A stretch of 64,000 nt of DNA from Gracilibacteraceae bacterium (GTDB lineage: Bacteria; Bacillota; Desulfitobacteriia; Desulfitobacteriales; Syntrophobotulaceae), in contig JAISAH010000015.1 of the NCBI GenBank assembly GCA_031266805.1, positions 1 to 64,000 on the forward strand, in the 5' to 3' direction. A model generated the notes under the pieces. The model saw only the letters and a list, made by a program, of their open reading frames with translations. It was not told where the DNA came from and made no database searches. Position 1 is the stretch's first letter; every line of letters begins with the position of its first letter. The position numbers and the translations under genes are program-made. Positions 5,077-40,177 of this stretch are shown here, piece by piece.

Positions 5077-6204
5077 ATGTCTGTCTCCGCGGACGCGATC
5101 TTTGATCATGAAAAAGAAAAACTGCTGCGCGCTTGTTTTTTAACTCTGCCGCAGATCGGCAGCGGCCATCTGCGCCAAATCCTTGGTATTTGGGGCGGGG
5201 CCGCCGCCGCTTATCAGCAGGCGCCGCGCGCCGCCGGTAAACTGTCCGGGTGGTTAAGTGATTTCGCCCGGCAATGCGGCGCGGCCGATCCGGTTCGGAT
5301 GGCCGAAACTCTGGCCCGCGAGGGGATCGGCGTCGTCGTGCCGGAGGAAAGGGAATATCCCTGTTTGCTGAAAGAATGTCCGGACGCGCCGCCGCTTCTG
5401 TTTTACAAGGGGCAATTGAGCGGCGGACAGGAAGGGATCGCCATAGTCGGCGCCCGCAAAGCCACTCATTACGGTAAAGCGGCAGCGGGGCGTCTGGCCG
5501 GGGAAATTGCCGGGGCGGGCTTTGTGATCGTCAGCGGTCTGGCCCGCGGCATAGACGGGGCGGCGCACGAAGGAGCGCTGCGGGCCGGCGGGATTACCTG
5601 GGCTTTTATGGCCGGCGGTCTGGAACGGGTTTATCCCGGGGAACACCGCGCTTTGGCCGTGAGGATTGCCGCCGGCGGCGGCGCGCTGCTCAGCGAGTTT
5701 CCTCCGGGCGCTTCCTGGCTGCCGCAGCGTTTTCCGATGCGCAATCGCCTGATCAGCGGCGTGTCGCGGGGCGTAGTGGTCGTGGAGGCGGGAGAGAGGA
5801 GCGGGAGCCTGATAACCGCGGATTTCGCCCTGGAACAGGGACGGGACGTCTTCGCCGTGCCGGGGCCGATTTTCAGCGAGGTCAGTCTCGGCGCCCACCA
5901 TCTCCTGCGGTCCGGCGCTCTGCTCGCGGCGAGCGGCGCGGATGTCCTCGGCGAATATGAAAAACCGGCGGGAGAGAAACAAGCTGTCTCGCCGCCGGTT
6001 CCCGCGGCAGGGACGCGCGTTTCCGCCGCTCACCGGGAAATACTCGCTTGTTTGAGCGATGTGCCGCTCCATGTCGATGAATTGCGGCGTCAATGCCGGC
6101 AAACCGCTCCGGAAACAGCGCTCAGCCTTCTGGAGTTGGAACTGAGCGGACGGATCCGCTCTTTGCCCGGACAGCATTTTGTCTTGAGCCGCGACTCCGC
6201 GTAA
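5077..6204 (+). CDS. dprA: DNA processing protein DprA
   Basis: 375 residues. An N-terminal helical (SAM-like) region (LPQIGSGHLRQILGIWGG) is followed by the extended Rossmann fold that binds single-stranded DNA: IAIVGARKATHYGK, VIVSGLARGIDGAAHEGAL, RFPMRNRLISG and EAGERSGSLITADFALEQGR are conserved. A C-terminal winged-helix domain occupies about residues 310-375. DprA loads RecA on incoming single-stranded DNA in transformation. AGGAG lies nine bases before the ATG. Together with comEA and comEC just upstream it suggests a working DNA uptake route, although the rest of the machinery is outside the window. Confidence 0.95.
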   Translation: MSVSADAIFDHEKEKLLRACFLTLPQIGSGHLRQILGIWGGAAAAYQQAPRAAGKLSGWLSDFARQCGAADPVRMAETLAREGIGVVVPEEREYPCLLKECPDAPPLLFYKGQLSGGQEGIAIVGARKATHYGKAAAGRLAGEIAGAGFVIVSGLARGIDGAAHEGALRAGGITWAFMAGGLERVYPGEHRALAVRIAAGGGALLSEFPPGASWLPQRFPMRNRLISGVSRGVVVVEAGERSGSLITADFALEQGRDVFAVPGPIFSEVSLGAHHLLRSGALLAASGADVLGEYEKPAGEKQAVSPPVPAAGTRVSAAHREILACLSDVPLHVDELRRQCRQTAPETALSLLELELSGRIRSLPGQHFVLSRDSA

Positions 6205-6216
6205 CGCGAAATTTTA

Positions 6217-7029
6217 TCACCCGAACGGGTAGATATAGCCTGGCGCTTCTTGGGCGGCGGTAATCCCGGTCACGATGATCTGCGGTTCCGGCCAGCCGTC
6301 ATACTCTCCGGCCTGGATGGTCCCTTCCACCGTGACCCAGCTGTCGGGCGCCAAGGCGGGCGCTCCGCTGAATTGGCAAATCAGGCCATAGGGAACGAGG
6401 TCGGCGGCGCAGCAGGTCATCCCGAGACGCGCCGTCATGAACTCGTTTTCCAGAAAAACTTCCGGGTCTTTGAAAACAAAGCCGGTGAGATAAATCTGCC
6501 AGCCCGCGTATTTATCCATATTGCTGTACAGTTCGTTCAGCCACGGGTAAAAATTGTCGTTATCGACGACGATAGAATGATCCGCCTCGTCGGCGCCCGG
6601 GGGCGCGGCGGGCAGATCCGCCGGCGTATATGTTTCCTCACCGGAGACGGCGTCCAGAGCCAGACCGGCGGTCGATGAAACCGGCGAAACAGGCGAGGGC
6701 GCGGAAAGCAGAGCGCCGCCGCCCGCGTAACTCCAGGAAATATCGGTTGAGGCGATGGGCGCGTGCGGCAAAAGAAACAGCAAGATCGGGACGGCCAGGA
6801 CGGCGCAATGACCGAGACGCGGGCGGCGCTGCGGGCGGCGCAGGCGGGTGGCGCCGGCGGCGGCCCAGATCAGCGTCACCGCGGCTGTGAAGTACAGATA
6901 CGGCTGCAGACGGGGCGTCACATAGTTCAAATAATCGCCGCTGCGGAGCAGATAGAGGAGCAGCAGGCCGAAAGCGGCGCTGGACAGGGTCTCCAGAAAA
7001 ACCTGCTGGTTGAGATTTCCGGCGCGCAT
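6217..7029 (-). CDS. TIGR03943/DUF1980-family membrane protein, partner of permease
   Basis: 270 residues. Three or so N-terminal membrane segments (AAFGLLLLYLLRSGDYLNYV, YLYFTAAVTLIWAAAG, CAVLAVPILLFLLPHAPIA) are followed by an outer soluble part with repeats such as YAGWQIYLTGFVFKDPE and WVTVEGTIQAGEYDGWP. This fits the TIGR03943 family, whose genes nearly always follow a PF03773 permease, as here (the ATG overlaps the permease stop at 7029). The substrate of these pairs is not established. The link to CobW-type GTPases here suggests metal traffic (inference). Confidence 0.75.
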   Translation of the reverse strand: MRAGNLNQQVFLETLSSAAFGLLLLYLLRSGDYLNYVTPRLQPYLYFTAAVTLIWAAAGATRLRRPQRRPRLGHCAVLAVPILLFLLPHAPIASTDISWSYAGGGALLSAPSPVSPVSSTAGLALDAVSGEETYTPADLPAAPPGADEADHSIVVDNDNFYPWLNELYSNMDKYAGWQIYLTGFVFKDPEVFLENEFMTARLGMTCCAADLVPYGLICQFSGAPALAPDSWVTVEGTIQAGEYDGWPEPQIIVTGITAAQEAPGYIYPFG

Positions 7030-8603
7030 CAGTATATACCTCCGGCGTTAGCATAGAGAAAAACAAGGATGAAACAGGCGGCGAACGCCGTAAGCGCCAG
7101 CCGGGTGATGAAACGGCCGCTGAAGACGGACGAGAGCAGCAGAGCGTTTTTTATATCCATCATCGGGCCGAAAACCATGAACCCCATCAGTGCGCCCGGC
7201 GGGAACTGGCCGACAAAACTGCGGGCGATGACGGCGTCGGAGGAGGAGCAAAGGGAGAGAAGGAACCCCATGGCCATCATGATGAACAGGGAAAGGAGCA
7301 GTCCGCCGCCGCTGCCGGACGCGGCCAGCGTTTTGGGGGCGACCGTCTGGAGCACCGCCGAGATGAAGGAGCCTAGCGCCAGATATTTCCCCATATGGAA
7401 AAACTCGGATTGAGCGTGCCGGAGCAGCAAGCTGATCTTCCCGGAAAGATCCGCCGCGCCGCCGTCCATGTCCTCGCAGCCGCAGCCGCATAGCGGGCGG
7501 CTCAGGGCCCCGCCGCCCAGAATGTTCTTTTTGGGGGGGAACAGGATAAAAGTCGCGCCGATAGCCAAGGCGGCCGCGAGGCCGAGAAAAACCCGCAGAA
7601 TGACTATGCGCATATTGCCGTTAAAAGCGTAATAGGTTGAAAGCATGACCACCGGGTTGATGACGGGCGCGGCGGTCATAAAAGTCACGGCCGCCGGCAA
7701 AGGGACTCCTTTGCGCACCAGACCGTAAAAAACCGGGATCGAGGCGCAATCGCAGACGGGCAGACAAAAACCGGCCATGACGGCGGTCGCCATTCCCCCC
7801 AGATTCGTTTTGGGGAAACGGCTCTCTATCGCCGCCCGGCTGACAAAAATTTCCACAATGCCGGAGATGAGGACGCCGACGAGCAAAAACGGCGCCGCCT
7901 GCAGAATGATCCCCAGGAAAATGTTGACTATTCTGTTGACAGGGACCCCAAGCAGCGTCAGACGTCCCGCCGCTATGAGGTAAACGGCGCTGAGGGCCGC
8001 GGCGGCGGCGATGAATATGGGCAGCGGCGGCCATGTTTTGCGCAGCAGCTGTCGGTGATAATCGTCATATGAGTTTATGCCGTAGGCGCGGACGCCCGGG
8101 TTGACCGCGCGCAGCAACCGGCGGATCTTAGCCGCGCCGCCGGCGTCTTCATTGCGCAATAGCACGAAATCGCTGCTGACGATTTGCTCGGGCAGGGCTT
8201 TTCCCGTGCGGCCCAGCAGTTTTTCCAGCTCCGCTCCGTCGGCGATATGGACGACGCGCCGGATCCGGCACCGGTTGTGCAGCAAGGGATGGAGCAGCAG
8301 GGCGTGTAAGGCGGAAAACGGGGCGATCCCGTTCCATTCGATCCATACCTCGTCATAATCGGCTTCGCGCAATTGGCGGCGGATCCGGCGGGCCACGTCT
8401 TCCGGCCGCTGTTCTAATTCCCTGAGCGGGAAAAGCAGGTTCTGGTGGGAATCGCCCGGCCCGGACAATTCCGTCTCGCCGTTTTCGAATTGGACGACCA
8501 AAATCCTGATATTGCGCCAGTCTTCACGGTCGAGCAGACCGTTGAGAAACGAGGTTTTCCCGGCGGACAGGAATCCGGTCAGCACGTAGACGGGAGCGAT
8601 CAT
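7029..8603 (-). CDS. Fusion of CobW-like P-loop domain and PF03773 permease
   Basis: 524 residues. Residues about 5-190 resemble a COG0523/CobW P-loop domain: VYVLTGFLSAGKTSFLNGL carries the Walker A motif, and DEVWIEWNG and FVLLRNED sit where switch and base-recognition elements are expected. The CxCC metal motif of COG0523 proteins is absent. From about residue 197 there are eight or more membrane helices of the PF03773 permease family with a conserved CDC motif (FCLPVCDCASIPV, about residue 281), a Cys-rich cytoplasmic loop (PLCGCGCED) and a second half starting LLSLFIMMAMGFL. The ATG at 8603 overlaps the stop of the upstream GTPase gene, so expression is coupled. Confidence 0.78.
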   Translation of the reverse strand: MIAPVYVLTGFLSAGKTSFLNGLLDREDWRNIRILVVQFENGETELSGPGDSHQNLLFPLRELEQRPEDVARRIRRQLREADYDEVWIEWNGIAPFSALHALLLHPLLHNRCRIRRVVHIADGAELEKLLGRTGKALPEQIVSSDFVLLRNEDAGGAAKIRRLLRAVNPGVRAYGINSYDDYHRQLLRKTWPPLPIFIAAAAALSAVYLIAAGRLTLLGVPVNRIVNIFLGIILQAAPFLLVGVLISGIVEIFVSRAAIESRFPKTNLGGMATAVMAGFCLPVCDCASIPVFYGLVRKGVPLPAAVTFMTAAPVINPVVMLSTYYAFNGNMRIVILRVFLGLAAALAIGATFILFPPKKNILGGGALSRPLCGCGCEDMDGGAADLSGKISLLLRHAQSEFFHMGKYLALGSFISAVLQTVAPKTLAASGSGGGLLLSLFIMMAMGFLLSLCSSSDAVIARSFVGQFPPGALMGFMVFGPMMDIKNALLLSSVFSGRFITRLALTAFAACFILVFLYANAGGIY

Positions 8604-9562
8604 GCGCTTTCTCCGCCCAATAAGCCGATCAGCTCGTCGCGGTTCAGATCGCGGCCGACAAAGGAGAGCGTTCCGCCTGCCGCTTCGCAGGGTTCTATTT
8701 GCCAGTCGCCGGGCAGATATTGCAGATTCCAGTGCCCGGCCGGGCCGCGCACCACGCCCTTAGCGCGCAGAACGGTCCCGGCCGCGCGGGGCAGAGCGGC
8801 GGCTAAAGTCTGTAATTCCAAGCGGGTGAAAGAGCGGTCCGTGCGGATATCGACCGCCTCAAAAACATCGCCGGCTGCGTGGCTGTGAGCGTGGTTTTCG
8901 TCGTGGACGTGGTTTTCGCCATGGGCGTGGCTGTGCCCGCATTCGCATCCCTCGGGATGGGCGGGCCGCTCCGGCGGGTCAAAACGAAGCAGATCGGCGG
9001 CGTTGATTTGGGTCCAGGGCTGGGTCAGGATCTCGGCGCGCGCGTTAAGAGAGCGGGCGAGATCCGCCGCGGTTTCCGCCATTTCCGGATAGGTTTCGGC
9101 GCGGGACATCAGGATAGTGTCAGCGCTTTCGATCTGATCCGTGAAAAACTCGCCGAAATTATCGTAATACATACGGCAGCGTTTGACATCCACGACCGTT
9201 ATTTTTCCGCGCAGCTCGGCGAGAGGCGTGACGGAGGGGTCGGCGCAAGCCGCGGCCACATCCGAAAGTTTGCTGACGCCGGAGGGCTCTACCAGCACCG
9301 CCTCCGGGTTAAAGCGCTTCAGGAGTTCGCGCAGGGATTTGACAAAGTCTCCGGTGATACTGCAGCATATGCAGCCGGAGTTCAGTTCGGCTACTTCGAC
9401 CCCGCTTGATTTAAGCAGGGCGGCGTCAATACCGGCTTCGCCGAAGTCGTTTTCCACCAAAACGGTTTTTACCCCGGCCAGCGCCTCCCGCAGCAGTTTC
9501 TGGATCAGAGTGGTTTTCCCCGCGCCCAGAAAACCGGAAATTATATATATTTTCGCCGTCAT
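8600..9562 (-). CDS. COG0523/CobW-family GTPase (metal insertion or trafficking)
   Basis: About 320 residues. The Walker A motif ISGFLGAGKTTLIQKL is near the start, the metal-binding CxCC motif appears in ELNSGCICCS, and EPSGVS follows the usual switch region. A His-rich stretch near residue 220 (CECGHSHAHGENH onward) resembles zinc or nickel-binding tails, and a C-terminal CobW_C domain ends the protein. The family moves metals such as Zn or Co to targets using GTP. The ATG at 9562 is chosen because GGAGGT lies seven bases upstream; longer frames lack a ribosome site. It heads a three-gene minus-strand operon with the fusion permease and TIGR03943 protein. Confidence 0.88.
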   Translation of the reverse strand: MTAKIYIISGFLGAGKTTLIQKLLREALAGVKTVLVENDFGEAGIDAALLKSSGVEVAELNSGCICCSITGDFVKSLRELLKRFNPEAVLVEPSGVSKLSDVAAACADPSVTPLAELRGKITVVDVKRCRMYYDNFGEFFTDQIESADTILMSRAETYPEMAETAADLARSLNARAEILTQPWTQINAADLLRFDPPERPAHPEGCECGHSHAHGENHVHDENHAHSHAAGDVFEAVDIRTDRSFTRLELQTLAAALPRAAGTVLRAKGVVRGPAGHWNLQYLPGDWQIEPCEAAGGTLSFVGRDLNRDELIGLLGGESA

Positions 9563-9660
9563 CGGCCGCACCTCCATATTGGGTTTCCATGGTATTTTAA
9601 CACGGCCCGCCCGACCCGTCAATTGAGGAAAATCTAAAATCGAAAAACCGGCGGGAGGGC

Positions 9661-9689
9661 TTGCGGACGGCTAAAATATATGTTATGAT
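9661..9689 (+). promoter_or_regulatory. Promoter of tRNA-Gly
   Basis: TTGCGG (9661-9666), 17-base spacer, TATGAT (9684-9689), about 18 bases before the tRNA 5' end. Confidence 0.55.
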
Positions 9690-9707
9690 GTGGGGCGAAG
9701 CTGATAA

Positions 9708-9782
9708 GCGGGCGTAGCTCAGTGGTAGAGCACTGGCTTCCCAAGCCAGGTGTCGCGGGTTCGAATCCCGTTGCCCGCTCCA
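9708..9782 (+). tRNA. tRNA-Gly (anticodon CCC)
   Basis: A complete cloverleaf can be drawn. The acceptor arms GCGGGCG and TGCCCGC pair with one G-T, the anticodon arm CTGGC/GCCAG encloses loop TTCCCAA (anticodon CCC), the T-arm contains GGTTCGAATCC, the discriminator base is T, and CCA is encoded. It reads GGG glycine codons. Confidence 0.93.
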
Positions 9783-9863
9783 GTCGGACGACGGAAATTC
9801 GGATGGAAATAAGCGGGCGATTGATGCCGGAACGGTAAGCCAAACGGATAGGGGGTGAGAGAA

Positions 9864-34800: not shown

Positions 34801-36297
34801 TCAACGCAGGAAAAAGACAAAAGTGTCGATGATGAACAGGGGAATGAGACAGCAGAGCGACCAGCCCATATACCCGAAGAAGCTGGGCATCTTGACGGCG
34901 TTTTCTTCCGCGATGGAGCGCACCATGAAATTCGGCGCGTTGCCGATATAAGTGTTAGCGCCCATAAACACCGCTCCGGCGGAAACGGCGAGCAAAATCT
35001 GTTCCGCGATGACCCCGACGCTGGTGGCCAGCCCTTCCACCGCGCCGAGGGAACCGGCGGTCGTCATAAACACGAGATAAGTCGGCGCGTTATCCAGGAA
35101 GCTGGAGAGCGCCCCCGCCGCCCAGAAAAACTGCCACGGATTCACCAGACCCAGTTCGCCGCCGCGAGCGTTGAGGATGGCCAGCGCCGGGATCATCGTG
35201 ATGAAGATGCCGATGAACAGGCAGCCCACTTCCAGGATCGGCCCCCAGGTGAAATGATTCATCTCCCGGAGGTCTTTCTTCGTCGTAGCGACCGAAAGTC
35301 CGCCGGCCAATAAAATGAGCAGTATTTGTAAAATGCTGTTAAAAGGCAGGATTATCCCGGCGTAAATCGGTATGCCGTGCAGTTCGCCGGTCGCCTGATC
35401 GGAGAAAAAGGGCAAGGGCGTCACTATGCCGTTCAGGATAACGGCGAAAACGATCAGTCCGAGAAAGAGCAGGTTGTGCAGACCTTTCACGCGCAGAGGC
35501 TCTTTGGCCTCCGTGGTCTCCGGCCCGCGGCCCGCGGCCAGCTCTTTTTTGTAGAAAAACGTATCCATGATGAAGAAAGCGGCGAGCAGAAGCACGACGT
35601 TGAAAAGAAGCACCGGCACGAGTTTCATCGTCCAGAAGAAAGGCACTCCGCGCAGGAAGCCGAGGAAAAGCGGCGGATCGCCGACCGGCGTCAGACATCC
35701 GCCAATATTTGAGACGAGGAAGATGAAAAACACGACGACATGGGCTTTTTTCTCCCGCCATTTGTTCGCCCGGAGAACCGGCCGGATGAGCAGCATACTG
35801 GCGCCGGTCGTGCCCACCCAGCTGGCGAGGGCCGTGCCGATCAGGAGCAGGACGATATTGACCCGCGGCGACCCAGCCAGCGTGCCGGTCAAAGCGATGC
35901 CGCCGGCCACGGCGAACAGGCCCCAGAGCAAAACGATGAACGGTAAGTAATCTAAAAGTACGATTTCCAGGAGTTCAAAGGCCGCTTCGCCGACGCCGAA
36001 ACCGAAAGCGAACGGGACCAGGAAAACAGCGGACCAAAAAAGGGCGACATGAAGCAGATGTTTTTCCCACCAATGCGGACGCGCCAGCGGAAAAATCGCG
36101 ATCGAAAGAAGCATGCCTACGAAGGGGATAACGCTCCAGACGGGTAATTCCAGACCGAGAACACTGTGCGCGCTTTCTTCGCCTCCCGCGCCGAGGACGC
36201 CGCCCGCGCCGTCTTCCGCCCCCAACAGGGGCAAAACCGGCAGAATCAGCAGGCACAACAGGCAAAGCAGGAAAACGAATGGCTTGCGACGATTCAT
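34801..36297 (-). CDS. NhaD/CitMHS-type sodium:proton antiporter or anion transporter
   Basis: 498 residues with about 12 membrane helices and an N-terminal signal-like segment (FVFLLCLLCLLILPVLPLL). Motifs include WVGTTGASMLLIRPVLRAN, SNIGGCLTPVGDPPLFLGFL and DNAPTYLVFM, which fit the ion-transporter superfamily group of NhaD-like proteins. The substrate (Na+/H+ or a carboxylate) cannot be separated by sequence alone. A TATAAT-type -10 box lies on the minus strand at 36352-36357. It appears to be a single-gene unit. Confidence 0.75.
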   Translation of the reverse strand: MNRRKPFVFLLCLLCLLILPVLPLLGAEDGAGGVLGAGGEESAHSVLGLELPVWSVIPFVGMLLSIAIFPLARPHWWEKHLLHVALFWSAVFLVPFAFGFGVGEAAFELLEIVLLDYLPFIVLLWGLFAVAGGIALTGTLAGSPRVNIVLLLIGTALASWVGTTGASMLLIRPVLRANKWREKKAHVVVFFIFLVSNIGGCLTPVGDPPLFLGFLRGVPFFWTMKLVPVLLFNVVLLLAAFFIMDTFFYKKELAAGRGPETTEAKEPLRVKGLHNLLFLGLIVFAVILNGIVTPLPFFSDQATGELHGIPIYAGIILPFNSILQILLILLAGGLSVATTKKDLREMNHFTWGPILEVGCLFIGIFITMIPALAILNARGGELGLVNPWQFFWAAGALSSFLDNAPTYLVFMTTAGSLGAVEGLATSVGVIAEQILLAVSAGAVFMGANTYIGNAPNFMVRSIAEENAVKMPSFFGYMGWSLCCLIPLFIIDTFVFFLR

Positions 36298-36435
36298 GAG
36301 TTCAGTCTCCCTTCAAATGAAAAAATTGGCGACCGTATACGATCTTGTTTTATTATAGCGAAAAAGGTCGAAAAATGGAAGTAGCAAATAGAAAATTTCT
36401 TGCGCATCAACCGTCGAACGGCGATCTCTGTTCCC

Positions 36436-37200
36436 CTACAGCGGTTTCTTTTTGGGGCGTCCGGGCGCTCGCGGGTACAAATCCGGCGTTTCCCGCGTTT
36501 TGACGACGACGACCAAAAAACGGGGGCTGCCATTCGCCGGCGCGCAATCTGCTATCTCCCGCACCTCCCCGCCGCAGAGCGCGAGGGCCCGACCGGCCTG
36601 GGCCGCTTCCTCCCGGGCGGCCGGCCCTTTGGCCGCCAAGAGGACCCCGCCCGGACGAAGCAGCGGCAGAGCATACTCGGTCAATACAGGCAGCGGCGCC
36701 ACCGCGCGGGCAGTCACACAGGCAAAGCGCCCGCGCCAGAGAACGCCGCGCCCCCAGTCCTCGGCCCGGCCCGCCAAAGTTCGCGCTCCGCTCAGGCCAA
36801 GGGCGCGGATGACGGCCTCTATAAAAATAAGGCGTTTCCCCAAGGAATCGCCTAAAACCCATTCCGACTCCGGCCAGGCCAGCTTGAGCGGCAGACCGGG
36901 GAAGCCGGCGCCGGCGCCCAGATCCAGCAGCGGACCGGCGGACGGTGTGGTCGCGGCCTGGGCGTAGGGCAGCAACGCCAGCGAATCCAGAAAATGTTTG
37001 CGCGCGATTTCCGCCGGCTCGGTGATGGCCGTCAGGTTCATCTTCCGGTTCCAGGCCAGCAGCATATCGCCGAAAAGGCCGAATTGCGCCAGCTGCCTGT
37101 CTGTCAGCGTGAGATCCCAGCGCGCCGCCGCTTCTCGGCGCAGCAGATCAGCTTCCGCCGCGCCGAACCGCGGATTTGATTTTTCCGCCGGATTTTTCAA
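36436..37200 (-). CDS. rsmG: 16S rRNA (guanine527-N7)-methyltransferase RsmG
   Basis: 254 residues. MNLTAITEPAEIARKHFLDSLALLP, LLDLGAGAGFPGLPLKLAWP (SAM-binding loop) and FACVTARAVAPLPVLTEYALPLL match RsmG/GidB. It methylates G527 of 16S rRNA. Its ATG overlaps the stop of the ABC permease gene before it (ATGA), an unusual partner, since rsmG usually lies next to mnmG or parA. Confidence 0.93.
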   Translation of the reverse strand: MKNPAEKSNPRFGAAEADLLRREAAARWDLTLTDRQLAQFGLFGDMLLAWNRKMNLTAITEPAEIARKHFLDSLALLPYAQAATTPSAGPLLDLGAGAGFPGLPLKLAWPESEWVLGDSLGKRLIFIEAVIRALGLSGARTLAGRAEDWGRGVLWRGRFACVTARAVAPLPVLTEYALPLLRPGGVLLAAKGPAAREEAAQAGRALALCGGEVREIADCAPANGSPRFLVVVVKTRETPDLYPRAPGRPKKKPL

Positions 37201-38024
37201 ACCTCATGCCGCAGCTTGGGATCCAGGTAGTCCCTGACCCCGTCGCCGATGAAATTTGCGCCCATCGACATCGTCAGGATGCCTATCCCCGGAAAAGTGG
37301 CGATCCACCAGTCATTCAGGTAATCGGCCCCGTCGGAGACCATCGCCCCCCATTCCGGCGTGGGCGGCGGCGAGCCGAGGCCGAGAAAACTGAGACCGGA
37401 AAAAAGCAAAATCGCGTTGCCAAAATCGACCGTAGCCAGCACGACGATGGAACCGATGCTGTTCGGCAGGATTTCATGGAAAAAAATACGCAAATCAGAG
37501 GAGCCCAGCGATTTGGCCGCTTCAACATACTCGTTGGAGCGCACCTGGATGACCATGCTGCGCATGACGCGAGCGTAATTGGGCCACCAGATGACGACCA
37601 TCGCCAATAAGGTGTGAAAGAGACTGGGGCCGAGGGCGGCGGAAATGACCATAGCGAGGATTATCGTCGGAAAAGCCTGCACGAGTTCCGCCCCGCGCAT
37701 CATGATCTCGTCGACCGCGCCGCCCAGATAGCCGGCGATCCCGCCGTAAACGACTCCGACCACGGAAGACAGCAGAATTGTCAGGAAGCCGGCGCCGATG
37801 GAAATGCGGCTGCCCGCGAGTACCCGGCTCAAAATATCGCGACCCAGGCTATCCGTGCCGCAAATGTGGGCGAGACTGGGTTTTTGGAACCGGGCGGTCA
37901 TATCCTGCCCCAGCGGGTCATAAGGCGAGATCAGCGGCGCCAAGAGGGCGATCATGATCCAGAAGGCGCACAAGGCTAAACCGATGGTGAACAGGCGGTT
38001 GCGGCGCAAGAGCGATCTGATCAT
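37197..38024 (-). CDS. Oligopeptide/nickel-type ABC transporter permease (DppC family)
   Basis: 275 residues. An N-terminal helix and TARFQKPSLAHICGTDSLGRDILSRVLAGSR, the DppC hallmark, are followed by the inner-membrane BPD_transp_1 domain with EAAKSLGSSDLRIFFHEILP (EAA loop). It pairs with the DppB-type gene it overlaps by four bases. No substrate-binding protein or ATPase gene is adjacent, so these must be encoded elsewhere. Confidence 0.88.
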   Translation of the reverse strand: MIRSLLRRNRLFTIGLALCAFWIMIALLAPLISPYDPLGQDMTARFQKPSLAHICGTDSLGRDILSRVLAGSRISIGAGFLTILLSSVVGVVYGGIAGYLGGAVDEIMMRGAELVQAFPTIILAMVISAALGPSLFHTLLAMVVIWWPNYARVMRSMVIQVRSNEYVEAAKSLGSSDLRIFFHEILPNSIGSIVVLATVDFGNAILLFSGLSFLGLGSPPPTPEWGAMVSDGADYLNDWWIATFPGIGILTMSMGANFIGDGVRDYLDPKLRHEV

Positions 38025-39037
38025 CGATCGTACCTCACGCGCGGGTCAAGCAGACCGTAGAGGATATCCACCGTGAGATTGATCAGAACGTAATTGACGG
38101 CGATGAGTAGCGATACGCCGACAATAGCGGGAAAATCAAGGTTTTTTGCCGACTGATAGGCGTATTGCCCGATGCCGGGCCAGGCAAAAATGGTTTCGAC
38201 GAACACCATGCCGGAGAGGAGATTGCCAAACCCGACGCCGACGACGGTAACGACGGGAATCAGGGCGTTACCGAGGGCGTGTTTGCGGATGACGTTTTTT
38301 TCCGCCAAACCCTTGGCCCGCGCCGTGCGGATAAAATCCAGCGAGAGGACTTCCAGCAAACTGGAACGGGTGGTGCGGGTAATGAGGCCCATGGTGAACA
38401 TACCGAGACAAATGCCCGGCAGCACCAGATGGCTGAGCGCGTCGCCCAGAAGCGCCCAGTCTCCCATGCGCAGGGCGTCCAACGTATAAAGGCCCGACCA
38501 GGTCTCGGGCGGAGAGACGCGCGGGGAAATGCGCCCCGGACCGGGCGCGACGCCAAACCCGAGGTAAAAAATGAACAGCATGATGAGTGCCAGCCAGAAC
38601 GAAGGGACGGAAACGCCGAACACAGAGACGCCGCGCAGGAAATGATCGGCGAAGGTGTTGCGGCGGATGGCGGAAATGACGCCGAACAGCACGCCGAACA
38701 AAGTGGCGAACAGGATACCGAACGCGGCCAGTTCGATAGTCGCGGGGAAATAACGGGCCAGATCGGCGGCGACGGGCCGCTGCGTCCTGATCGAAAGCCC
38801 GAGGTCCCCCTGGACAAGATTTGACATATATGTAAAATACTGGCGGTAAAGCGGCTGATCCAAGCCCCATTTAGCGCGAAAAGCCGCCACCATCTCCGCG
38901 TCGCCCAGATTGCGCTGGCTGAGATTGGCGACTACCGGGTCGCTGGGCACGGCGTGAGAGAGCAAAAAAACCACAATAGTCACGCCGACCATGAGAAAAA
39001 TCAAAAAGATCAAACGCCGTAAAATGTAACGAAACAT
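38021..39037 (-). CDS. Oligopeptide/nickel-type ABC transporter permease (DppB family)
   Basis: 338 residues. The start MFRYILRRLIFLIFLMVGVT and QRNLGDAEMVAAFRAKWGLD are typical of DppB-type subunits. The transport domain contains RTARAKGLAEKNVIRKHALGNAL, the EAA loop that contacts the ATPase. GGAGG precedes the ATG at 39037 and a good promoter lies upstream. It forms an operon with the DppC-type gene and rsmG. Confidence 0.9.
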   Translation of the reverse strand: MFRYILRRLIFLIFLMVGVTIVVFLLSHAVPSDPVVANLSQRNLGDAEMVAAFRAKWGLDQPLYRQYFTYMSNLVQGDLGLSIRTQRPVAADLARYFPATIELAAFGILFATLFGVLFGVISAIRRNTFADHFLRGVSVFGVSVPSFWLALIMLFIFYLGFGVAPGPGRISPRVSPPETWSGLYTLDALRMGDWALLGDALSHLVLPGICLGMFTMGLITRTTRSSLLEVLSLDFIRTARAKGLAEKNVIRKHALGNALIPVVTVVGVGFGNLLSGMVFVETIFAWPGIGQYAYQSAKNLDFPAIVGVSLLIAVNYVLINLTVDILYGLLDPRVRYDR

Positions 39038-39059
39038 ATTTTCCTCCGTATAAGACAAT

Positions 39060-39088
39060 ATAATACGGATTCTCCGCCTGTTTGTCAA
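39060..39088 (-). promoter_or_regulatory. Promoter of the DppB/DppC/rsmG operon
   Basis: On the minus strand TTGACA (39083-39088), 17-base spacer, TATTAT (39060-39065), 23 bases before the ATG at 39037. Confidence 0.75.
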
Positions 39089-39128
39089 GGAAACTATCTC
39101 CAAGGCGAAAAATCATCCCAAAAAAAGC

Positions 39129-39157
39129 TTGACAGGAGTAAAACTGATGTGCATAAT
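39129..39157 (+). promoter_or_regulatory. Promoter of the amino-acid ABC transporter operon
   Basis: TTGACA (39129-39134), 17-base spacer, CATAAT (39152-39157), about 94 bases before the start codon. The leader contains an inverted repeat. Confidence 0.7.
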
Positions 39158-39168
39158 AAAGAGAGTTT

Positions 39169-39203
39169 CATAGAAAACATATATGTTTAATATATTTTCT
39201 ATG
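39169..39203 (+). promoter_or_regulatory. Leader inverted repeat
   Basis: Arms CATAGAAAA (39169-39177) and TTTTCTATG (39195-39203) enclose an AT-rich 17-base loop holding CATATATG. It begins 12 bases after the -10 box, around or just past the transcription start, so it could be a repressor site or an RNA hairpin. Confidence 0.4.
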
Positions 39204-39250
39204 ACGCTTCCCGCCAGGGAGAAAAAATTTTTATTCGGGAGGAATGTATC

Positions 39251-40177
39251 ATGCTACAGAGAAAACCGGGCCACCTGTATCTTTTCACGCTCATCATCGC
39301 GGCGCTTTTGGTTCTCAGCGCTTGCGGCGGCTCAGTCAGCGGCGGCGCGGCTCCCGCAGGCACCGAGAACACTCCCCAGCAAAACTCCGCTCAAGGCGGC
39401 GAAGCGACGGCGCCGGAAAAAATCCTCGTCGGCACCTCCGGACTCGTTTATCCGGTCACTTTTTACGATGAAGACAATAATCTGACCGGGGTTGACGTCA
39501 GATTGACGGAGGAAATATTCAAACGTCTGCCGGAATACGAATACGAGTGGTATGTGGCTGATCTGGTGACGCTGTTCATCGCCGTGGACACGAATAAGAT
39601 CCAGATGATCGCTCATAACATCGGCAAGAATCCGGAACGCCTAGCCAAATACCTCTACGGGGACAAACCGCATAACCGGAGCCTGCCGGTCATCGCTTTC
39701 CAGAAAGGCCGCACGGACATCCAGACTATGGACGATCTGAAGGGTAAAACCATGCCGTTTGTCGGCGACGGCGCTTTGGCGGAGCTCTATTTTGAAAAAT
39801 ACAACGAGACCGAGGCCGCGGATAACCCGGTGAACATGCAGTACGGCATCGATATAAACTCGGCGCTGCTCGGCGCCAGCAACGGCCGATATGACGCGGC
39901 GGACAGCAGCGTCGTCGGGTTGGATAATTTTTACAAAACCTATGGCATTGAGCTGGATTATTTCCCGATCCCCAACGGCCACGAACTGAACGCCGGCGAC
40001 GGCGCCTATCTGGTCTATCATCCCGACCAGACGGAACTCAAGGAAAAAATCGACGCCGTTTTGCAGGAACTGAAAGACGACGGCACGCTGCTCGGCATAT
40101 TTAAGGAATTCTACGGCGATCACGCGCAGGAGATCATGGATCAGGTCAACTCGTCCATACCCGTTCAATTCGATTAA
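39251..40177 (+). CDS. Polar amino-acid ABC transporter substrate-binding lipoprotein
   Basis: 308 residues. A lipoprotein signal ends at LSACGG, followed by a Gln/Ala-rich linker and then a family-3 solute-binding domain: LTGVDVRLTEEIFKRLPEYEYEW, VDTNKIQMIAHNIGKNPERLAKY, TMDDLKGKTMPFVGDGALAEL. It probably captures an amino acid or close relative outside the membrane. GGGAGG precedes the ATG. Genes for its permease and ATPase follow. Confidence 0.9.
   Translation: MLQRKPGHLYLFTLIIAALLVLSACGGSVSGGAAPAGTENTPQQNSAQGGEATAPEKILVGTSGLVYPVTFYDEDNNLTGVDVRLTEEIFKRLPEYEYEWYVADLVTLFIAVDTNKIQMIAHNIGKNPERLAKYLYGDKPHNRSLPVIAFQKGRTDIQTMDDLKGKTMPFVGDGALAELYFEKYNETEAADNPVNMQYGIDINSALLGASNGRYDAADSSVVGLDNFYKTYGIELDYFPIPNGHELNAGDGAYLVYHPDQTELKEKIDAVLQELKDDGTLLGIFKEFYGDHAQEIMDQVNSSIPVQFD

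Follow-up and report, generated by a model that had tools for sequence, protein, structure and literature searches.

What does a CobW-type nucleotide-binding domain do at the front of a membrane permease, directly beside a free CobW GTPase? This question is raised by a locus in a 64,000-nucleotide stretch of a Gracilibacteraceae bacterium genome (contig JAISAH010000015.1, positions 1–64,000; hereafter "the window"), where three overlapping minus-strand genes encode a CobW protein, a fusion protein and a TIGR03943-type protein (Table 1), flanked by dprA-like and plsX-like genes that were named by eye. With a probability of about one in two, the cassette represents a zinc-handling module, in which a CxCC-less, membrane-bound nucleoside triphosphatase (NTPase) would dock a zinc-carrying CobW protein onto a permease.

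A fused and a free CobW-type protein in one cassette

A first reading of the sequence, in the following termed the original prediction, had proposed that a CobW-type P-loop domain is fused to a PF03773 permease, and both domains were recovered above their Pfam cut-offs: ArsP_1 (PF03773) with 187.3 bits (E 4.5e-55, cut-off 32.3) and cobW (PF02492), at residues 4–158, with 38.9 bits (E 8.4e-10, cut-off 20.7). A hydropathy scan placed a further helix at residues 194–212, ahead of the ArsP_1 part, which would fit a cytosolic P-loop half. The separate GTPase matched PF02492 with 139.9 bits (E 8.8e-41) and CobW_C with 24.4 bits (E 2.7e-5, cut-off 22), and the third protein reached 143 bits in the TIGR03943 model, whose equivalog cut-off is 88.8 bits. 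Further details of the original prediction were likewise recovered, i.e., the retained Walker A and absent CxCC motif of the fused domain, the CICC motif and His-rich stretch of the free CobW, and the overlap of all three genes on one strand, which amounts to 4 nt between cobW and the fusion gene (ATGA) and to 1 nt between the latter and the TIGR03943 gene.

The longest open reading frame (ORF) of cobW spans 8600–9622 (minus strand), and the start at 9562, with GGAGG ahead of it, is preferred, in agreement with the end coordinate of the original prediction. The sigma70-like promoter was the only one found in 6000–9800, where 0.8 were expected, and is on its own weak evidence. No RNA element was detected ahead of the cassette, Rfam yielding two tRNAs only within the window.

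Table 1. Features of the cassette and of related loci. Positions are those of the window unless a compared locus (L number) is given.
Feature	Position	Strand	Basis
cobW: G3E/COG0523 GTPase with CICC and His-rich stretch, 320 amino acids	8600-9562	-	PF02492, CobW_C
Fusion gene: CxCC-less CobW-like P-loop domain and ArsP_1 permease, 524 amino acids	7029-8603	-	Pfam
Fusion, P-loop half: residues 1-190; Walker A GFLSAGKTS at 10-18; EWNG at 89-92; without CxCC	8034-8603	-	
Fusion, ArsP_1 permease half: residues 223-517; C-D-C at residues 284-286	7053-7937	-	
TIGR03943 (YcgQ/ScfB-type) gene: DUF1980 membrane part and DUF1980_C, 270 amino acids	6217-7029	-	
DUF1980_C domain, CCxxD motif (TCCAAD)	6226-6588	-	
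Sigma70-like promoter TTGACG-17-TAAAAT ahead of cobW	9594-9622	-	10/12 matches
Loci with P-loop/DUF1980_C proteins	L153, L154, L156-L158, L165, L171, L173-L188, L191-L205, L226-L245		
HxCxGxxCxxC protein	L064:14701-15051, L103:11986-12309, L104:11622-11933, L105:11665-11976, L106:11276-11587, L109:10535-10837		

The fusion recurs intact in other genomes

The original prediction had named two ways in which the fusion could be spurious, a frameshift artefact joining two genes and a decayed P-loop half, and had suggested searching for the same architecture elsewhere. This search returned 24 intact loci in 22 genomes. The nearest named records are metagenome bins labelled "Gracilibacteraceae bacterium", among which one reaches 98% identity across the parts it contains. 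Within the genus, full-length single fusion ORFs share 73–76% identity with that of the window; a second genus of the same family and a different family of the order have such ORFs at 53–55%. Since the same full-length ORF is present in independent genomes, the fusion reflects neither chance nor an assembly error.

Within the class, the whole fusion was found in 9 of 82 genomes and, split across two contigs, in one more. In the family of Clostridium sp. Marseille-P2415, which we take to be the Lachnospiraceae, a broader model located it in 13 of 397 genomes at 15 places; two of these places show a stop inside the matched stretch, yet ORFs of 530 and 519 amino acids hold both halves. The narrower, close-relative model detected the fusion in 3 of 398 genomes of the phylum, a count that understates its spread because the broader model turned up more divergent fusions. 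A tblastn search for plasmid carriage among 72,556 plasmid records gave 33 matched records, none covering 80% of the query, and in the best 20 of the 33 the match starts no earlier than query residue 218 and hence comprises the permease only.

Broken copies do exist at two other loci and could in principle suggest gene decay, a frameshift or misassembly. At L065 (5374–6968), in a genome with two full fusions, a third cassette retains P-loop residues 1–71, half of the permease and a truncated TIGR03943 gene; at L066 (7251–7904), the permease has been lost and the P-loop half (217 amino acids) is kept behind fur and cobW. Such an origin of the fusion is nevertheless vanishingly unlikely: the 24 intact ORFs with their invariant motifs rule out the frameshift or assembly artefact, and decay of the P-loop half is ruled out by ratios of nonsynonymous to synonymous substitution rates (dN/dS) of 0.07–0.17 together with the invariant Walker A motif described below.

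The CxCC-less domain is maintained by selection

The P-loop half is under purifying selection. Its dN/dS was 0.070 against the closest relative (98%) and 0.164–0.174 against three relatives at 73–76%, similar to the 0.038–0.189 of the permease half; for the three distant relatives dS is near 1, and the permease of the closest relative is partial. Among 25 copies examined, i.e., the 24 fusions and the one copy with a lost permease, Walker A (GxxxxGKT) is kept in all, E-x-N-[GS] replaces the EPSG of CobW in all, and CxCC occurs in none.

A tree of 78 P-loop domains, from which the fused loci L009, L059 and L062 were left out, separates the two types cleanly. One branch (100/97) sets the 37 CxCC CobW rows apart from all others, and CxCC was found in all 37 versus none of the 41 rows of the CxCC-less clade, in which the Walker A Lys and Thr are retained throughout (41/41). 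E-x-N-[GS] is present in 21/21 permease fusions, 16/17 DUF1980_C fusions and 3/3 others, and EPSG, EPTG or EASG in 36/37 CobW rows. In the NKxD position, the fused domain lacks the canonical motif (LRNED in the window, NRxE/NRxD-like in L110–L112), and the free CobW of the window carries SRAE. As neither NTPase possesses a canonical NKxD, the nucleotide bound is uncertain, and the sequence does not establish a specificity for guanine.

AlphaFold models of the fusion (built from 7 sequences, mean predicted local distance difference test score 47.1) and of the TIGR03943 protein (5 sequences, 58.9) are of low confidence. Even so, the P-loop part of the fusion model alternates strands and helices as expected for a P-loop fold, and it is from this part alone that fold matches are of use: Foldseek listed YjiA first (E 1.2e-5), followed by HypB, Get3, GTPases of the signal recognition particle (SRP), MeaB and UreG. 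The TIGR03943 model gave no Foldseek match below E 0.001. In the Protein Data Bank, neither the fusion nor the TIGR03943 protein has a sequence relative except YjiA for the P-loop half.

The genomic context points to zinc

The general link to metals contained in the original prediction was strengthened and can be narrowed, since synteny with znuABC and Fur-family genes points to zinc. Neighbour counts were obtained with profiles built in this analysis, gene identities being checked with Pfam and NCBIfam on examples. A ZnuA gene lies within the fetched stretch at 16 of the 24 fusion loci, znuB upstream on the same strand at 14, a Fur-family gene at 10 and a CxCC CobW at 20; every one of the 24 is accompanied by a TIGR03943 gene, which in a single case is truncated at the contig end. 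As control for the znu linkage, loci encoding a soluble pair of a P-loop/DUF1980_C protein and CobW (see below) took the place of a random-gene background count: ZnuA within six ORFs was found at none of 15 such loci (L191–L205), and a ZnuA- or ZnuB-type gene in flanks of roughly 3 kb at 2 of 20. Among 15 unfused control loci, not all of which contain ArsP_1, L117, L118, L124 and L126 have ArsP_1/TIGR03943 genes near znu genes, which ties zinc to the permease type as such rather than to the fusion alone.

Moreover, the palindrome AATGCAAATnATTTGCATT, or a version of it unreached in 200 shuffles, precedes 10 of the 24 gene sets tested, including znuA of the window's own genome and the truncated L066. 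It stands ahead of the whole set at L061, L101, L103 and L111–L113, although the consensus was derived from L111–L113 and the matches there are therefore circular. The window's own genome has a 14/18 version on another contig, 5 nt ahead of the znuA ORF, and no version in the window. In this species, then, the cassette stands apart from the znu operon and is probably expressed from its own promoter.

Independent published support for the zinc link may come from Bacillus anthracis, in which Zur binds the region ahead of the BAS1632 ArsP_1 operon, the fragment of the electrophoretic mobility shift assay being the same as that of yciC (PMC6336718). There, as in the cassette, an ArsP_1 permease is located beside a COG0523 gene; the accessible part of that report describes it as a permease of unknown specificity and mentions no fusion (PMC6336718).

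The same P-loop domain joins DUF1980_C in a large family

Besides the permease, DUF1980_C (PF21537) emerged as a partner of the CxCC-less domain. DUF1980_C was detected in 39 of 398 genomes of the phylum and in 358 of 397 genomes of the family of Clostridium sp. Marseille-P2415. The best 30 loci of that family comprise 18 CxCC-less P-loop/DUF1980_C fusions and 12 TIGR03943-type proteins, and among 20 hand-picked lower-scoring loci all encode the P-loop/DUF1980_C fusion, with CxCC in 0/20 and E-x-N-G in 20/20. At 17 of these 20 loci, a CxCC CobW gene comes directly before the fusion in the same orientation; for two of the remaining three, the available stretch is truncated by a contig end. With about 310–330 amino acids, a transmembrane segment predicted in none of 17 and mostly an adjoining CxCC, His-rich CobW, this soluble protein is seemingly uncharacterised.

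In the tree, permease-fused domains fall into two groups: one of 17 rows, or 18 with the truncated L066 (99/94), and one of four rows (L110–L113, 100/100) placed among the DUF1980_C-fused rows (joint clade 96/95). Two lineages thus have the domain fused to the same kind of permease, and a third has it fused to DUF1980_C, the domain of the other subunit, a "Rosetta stone" pattern arguing for working contact between all three parts. An unfused variant exists as well: at L189 and L190, whose tree position is unsure (long branch), a P-loop protein of about 210 amino acids with one C-terminal hydrophobic helix is encoded beside ArsP_1 and TIGR03943, at L190 together with a CxCC CobW and a ZnuA gene.

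CCxxD is found in 42 of 42 DUF1980_C domains examined, 31 of them having a third Cys in register, and all 24 permease halves contain C-D-C. For most TIGR03943 proteins two or three helices are predicted, and their DUF1980_C domain may lie on either side of the membrane; the soluble P-loop/DUF1980_C version suggests that the domain is able to work in the cytosol. A CxCC CobW is encoded in all nine genomes tested, which include those without CxCC CobW beside the fusion or the free P-loop protein (G765, G730, G629, G519 and G278).

In one protein of 600 amino acids (L114, 3019–4821), two PKD domains precede the ArsP_1 permease, an addition that is probably extracellular.

Comparison with known systems

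The free CobW shares the G domain, CxCC, His-rich stretch and CobW_C with COG0523 zinc metallochaperones such as YciC/ZagA and ZigA, for which a linkage to zinc and Zur is typical (PMC2770081). The fused domain has the fold and Walker A motif of COG0523 proteins, as seen in the E. coli structure of YjiA, and differs by the absence of CxCC and CobW_C, by E-x-N-G and by the attached permease. In the accessible text of Haas et al., all COG0523 members possess CxCC, and the outlier Rv0106 also lacks Walker A (PMC2770081), in contrast to the CxCC-less clade described here, which has retained it.

The two families formed by the ArsP_1 permease and the TIGR03943 protein stand side by side also in YcgR/YcgQ, equivalent to ScfA/ScfB, and fitness phenotypes have been published for ScfAB and YcgRQ, which are named there as homologues (PMC5584981). 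As far as the accessible text goes, the permease is described there without a P-loop domain, and neither a substrate nor a link to zinc is reported.

In its way of working, the fusion could resemble FeoB, which also carries an N-terminal NTPase domain on a metal-ion permease. The G domain of FeoB is Ras-like (TRAFAC). The fusion, by contrast, has a SIMIBI/G3E fold and an ArsP_1 permease in place of the FeoB gate domains, and no Feo family occurred among its Pfam matches up to E 1; FeoB is an analogue, and the fusion is not a member. The nucleotide specificity of FeoB is itself debated, according to the accessible part of a review on NTPase metallochaperones and FeoB (PMC9164220). A second likeness of this kind is offered by SRP Ffh/FtsY and Get3, where a soluble, cargo-carrying SIMIBI NTPase pairs with a related or membrane-bound partner. 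Both SRP GTPases and Get3 are among the Foldseek matches of the P-loop part, but the relation is at the level of the SIMIBI fold, and such a pairing in the cassette would be an analogy.

A putative docking mechanism and its alternatives

SIMIBI proteins commonly pair through their nucleotide sites, as in the homodimers of HypB and UreG or the SRP Ffh/FtsY heterodimer. By analogy, soluble CobW with its zinc cargo could find a membrane-bound partner in the CxCC-less domain, a related NTPase, with the nucleotide sites of both forming the contact. Nucleotide binding or hydrolysis would then dock CobW at the permease, the permease would move zinc, and the CCxxD site of DUF1980_C might act as transfer site. 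That the P-loop domain gates or energises the permease, as the original prediction had considered possible, would be in line with such a scheme. Whereas composition, conservation and linkage of the cassette can be read directly from the sequences, nucleotide binding and turnover, contact with CobW, the substrate and the direction of transport are inferred. Given the linkage to the importer ZnuABC, acquisition or re-allocation of zinc when it is scarce seems likelier than detoxification, and import by the permease itself is a possibility that we advance tentatively. In its widest form, the scheme describes a zinc counterpart of FeoB assembled from unrelated parts, with the CxCC-less SIMIBI domain as built-in receptor of a zinc permease and CxCC CobW as the carrier docking by a nucleotide-dependent heterodimer; the DUF1980_C-fused receptor and CobW would then constitute a soluble two-NTPase system in most members of a large family. 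This extension is speculative and, taken as a whole, rather unlikely.

Several observations weigh against zinc docking as outlined above. To our knowledge, the characterised PF03773 proteins are exporters. No ZnuA gene is found in the stretch at eight of the 24 loci (the window, L067, L009 on a 3.5-kb contig, L068, L059 with a ZnuB fragment only, L063, L102 and L108), including all four of the window's genus, and the window's own genome has znuA-znuC-znuB-fur on another contig. An adjacent CxCC CobW is missing at four fusion loci (L107, L109, L112 and L113), and the NKxD motif is non-canonical in both NTPases of the window. The Fur-family proteins reach no NCBIfam Zur model cut-off, all their matches staying below, so that the label "Zur" is taken from context. 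A Zur box upstream, which the original prediction had suggested looking for, was not found: the Zur-like box has 0 matches in the window at up to 3 mismatches, a result that tests only the box whose consensus was built here.

Some of these points would suit a P-loop domain that senses nucleotide or zinc-loaded CobW in the cytosol and switches an ArsP_1-type exporter, either to remove zinc or a different metal or to supply zinc to envelope enzymes. The fusion does give weak sub-cut-off matches to the SO_0444 Cu/Zn exporter model NF033936 (71.2 bits, equivalog cut-off 300) and to the SaoE efflux model (56.6 bits, cut-off 325), and Zur boxes upstream of the -35 element of BAS1632 were read by the authors, in the accessible text, as positive Zur control, which would fit export (PMC6336718). 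The genes of the cassette, however, so often follow znuB on the same strand, and the box ahead of whole gene sets predicts expression in zinc shortage, where export makes little sense; we consider such an exporter unlikely. Loss of CxCC, the degenerate NKxD and the change from EPSG to E-x-N-G could also mean that the fused domain is a structural adaptor, whose shape serves the docking of CobW or DUF1980_C without a nucleotide cycle. This is an improbable reading, since every copy, however divergent its sequence, has retained Lys and Thr of Walker A, a constancy that a domain unable to bind nucleotides would hardly show. The substrate, finally, might be a metal other than zinc, or else an organo-arsenical or small metal ligand, the znu linkage then reflecting a shared regulator only. 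The window copy indeed lies outside any znu operon, and a substrate has not been established for YcgRQ/ScfAB-type pairs, the ScfAB fitness phenotypes coming without one in the accessible text (PMC5584981); yet divergent genomes repeatedly show the cassette linked to znu, to Fur-family genes and to a His-rich CobW with CxCC, which makes a different substrate highly improbable.

Implications and further observations

The fusion seems to be new, whereas the zinc/Zur link of COG0523, FeoB and the phenotypes of ScfAB/YcgRQ were already known: no literature title or abstract on a CobW/permease fusion was found in a search that did not extend to the COG0523 review PMC8360895 or to domain-architecture databases. 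How COG0523 zinc chaperones are loaded, and whether they come into contact with transporters, is unsettled, and the occurrence of the fusion inside Znu operons offers a direct physical hypothesis, with CobW and its CxCC-less partner as a named pair open to purification and testing. DUF1980/YcgRQ-type (ScfAB) proteins would gain a zinc lead, and many members of one large family possess the soluble version. If a zinc counterpart of FeoB were confirmed, it would provide a first function for DUF1980 and for the CxCC-less CobW-like clade.

Beside znuA, six fusion loci encode a small membrane protein of 100–116 amino acids with the motif HxCxGxxCxxC (Table 1); the one copy tested, that of L106, had no Pfam match. 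At L064 (8850–14621), znuC-znuB-cobW is duplicated within one zinc operon, one cobW copy being joined to a piece of ZnuA. Elsewhere in the window, the AT skew of 0.211 at 36001–40000 is the highest among its 4-kb steps.

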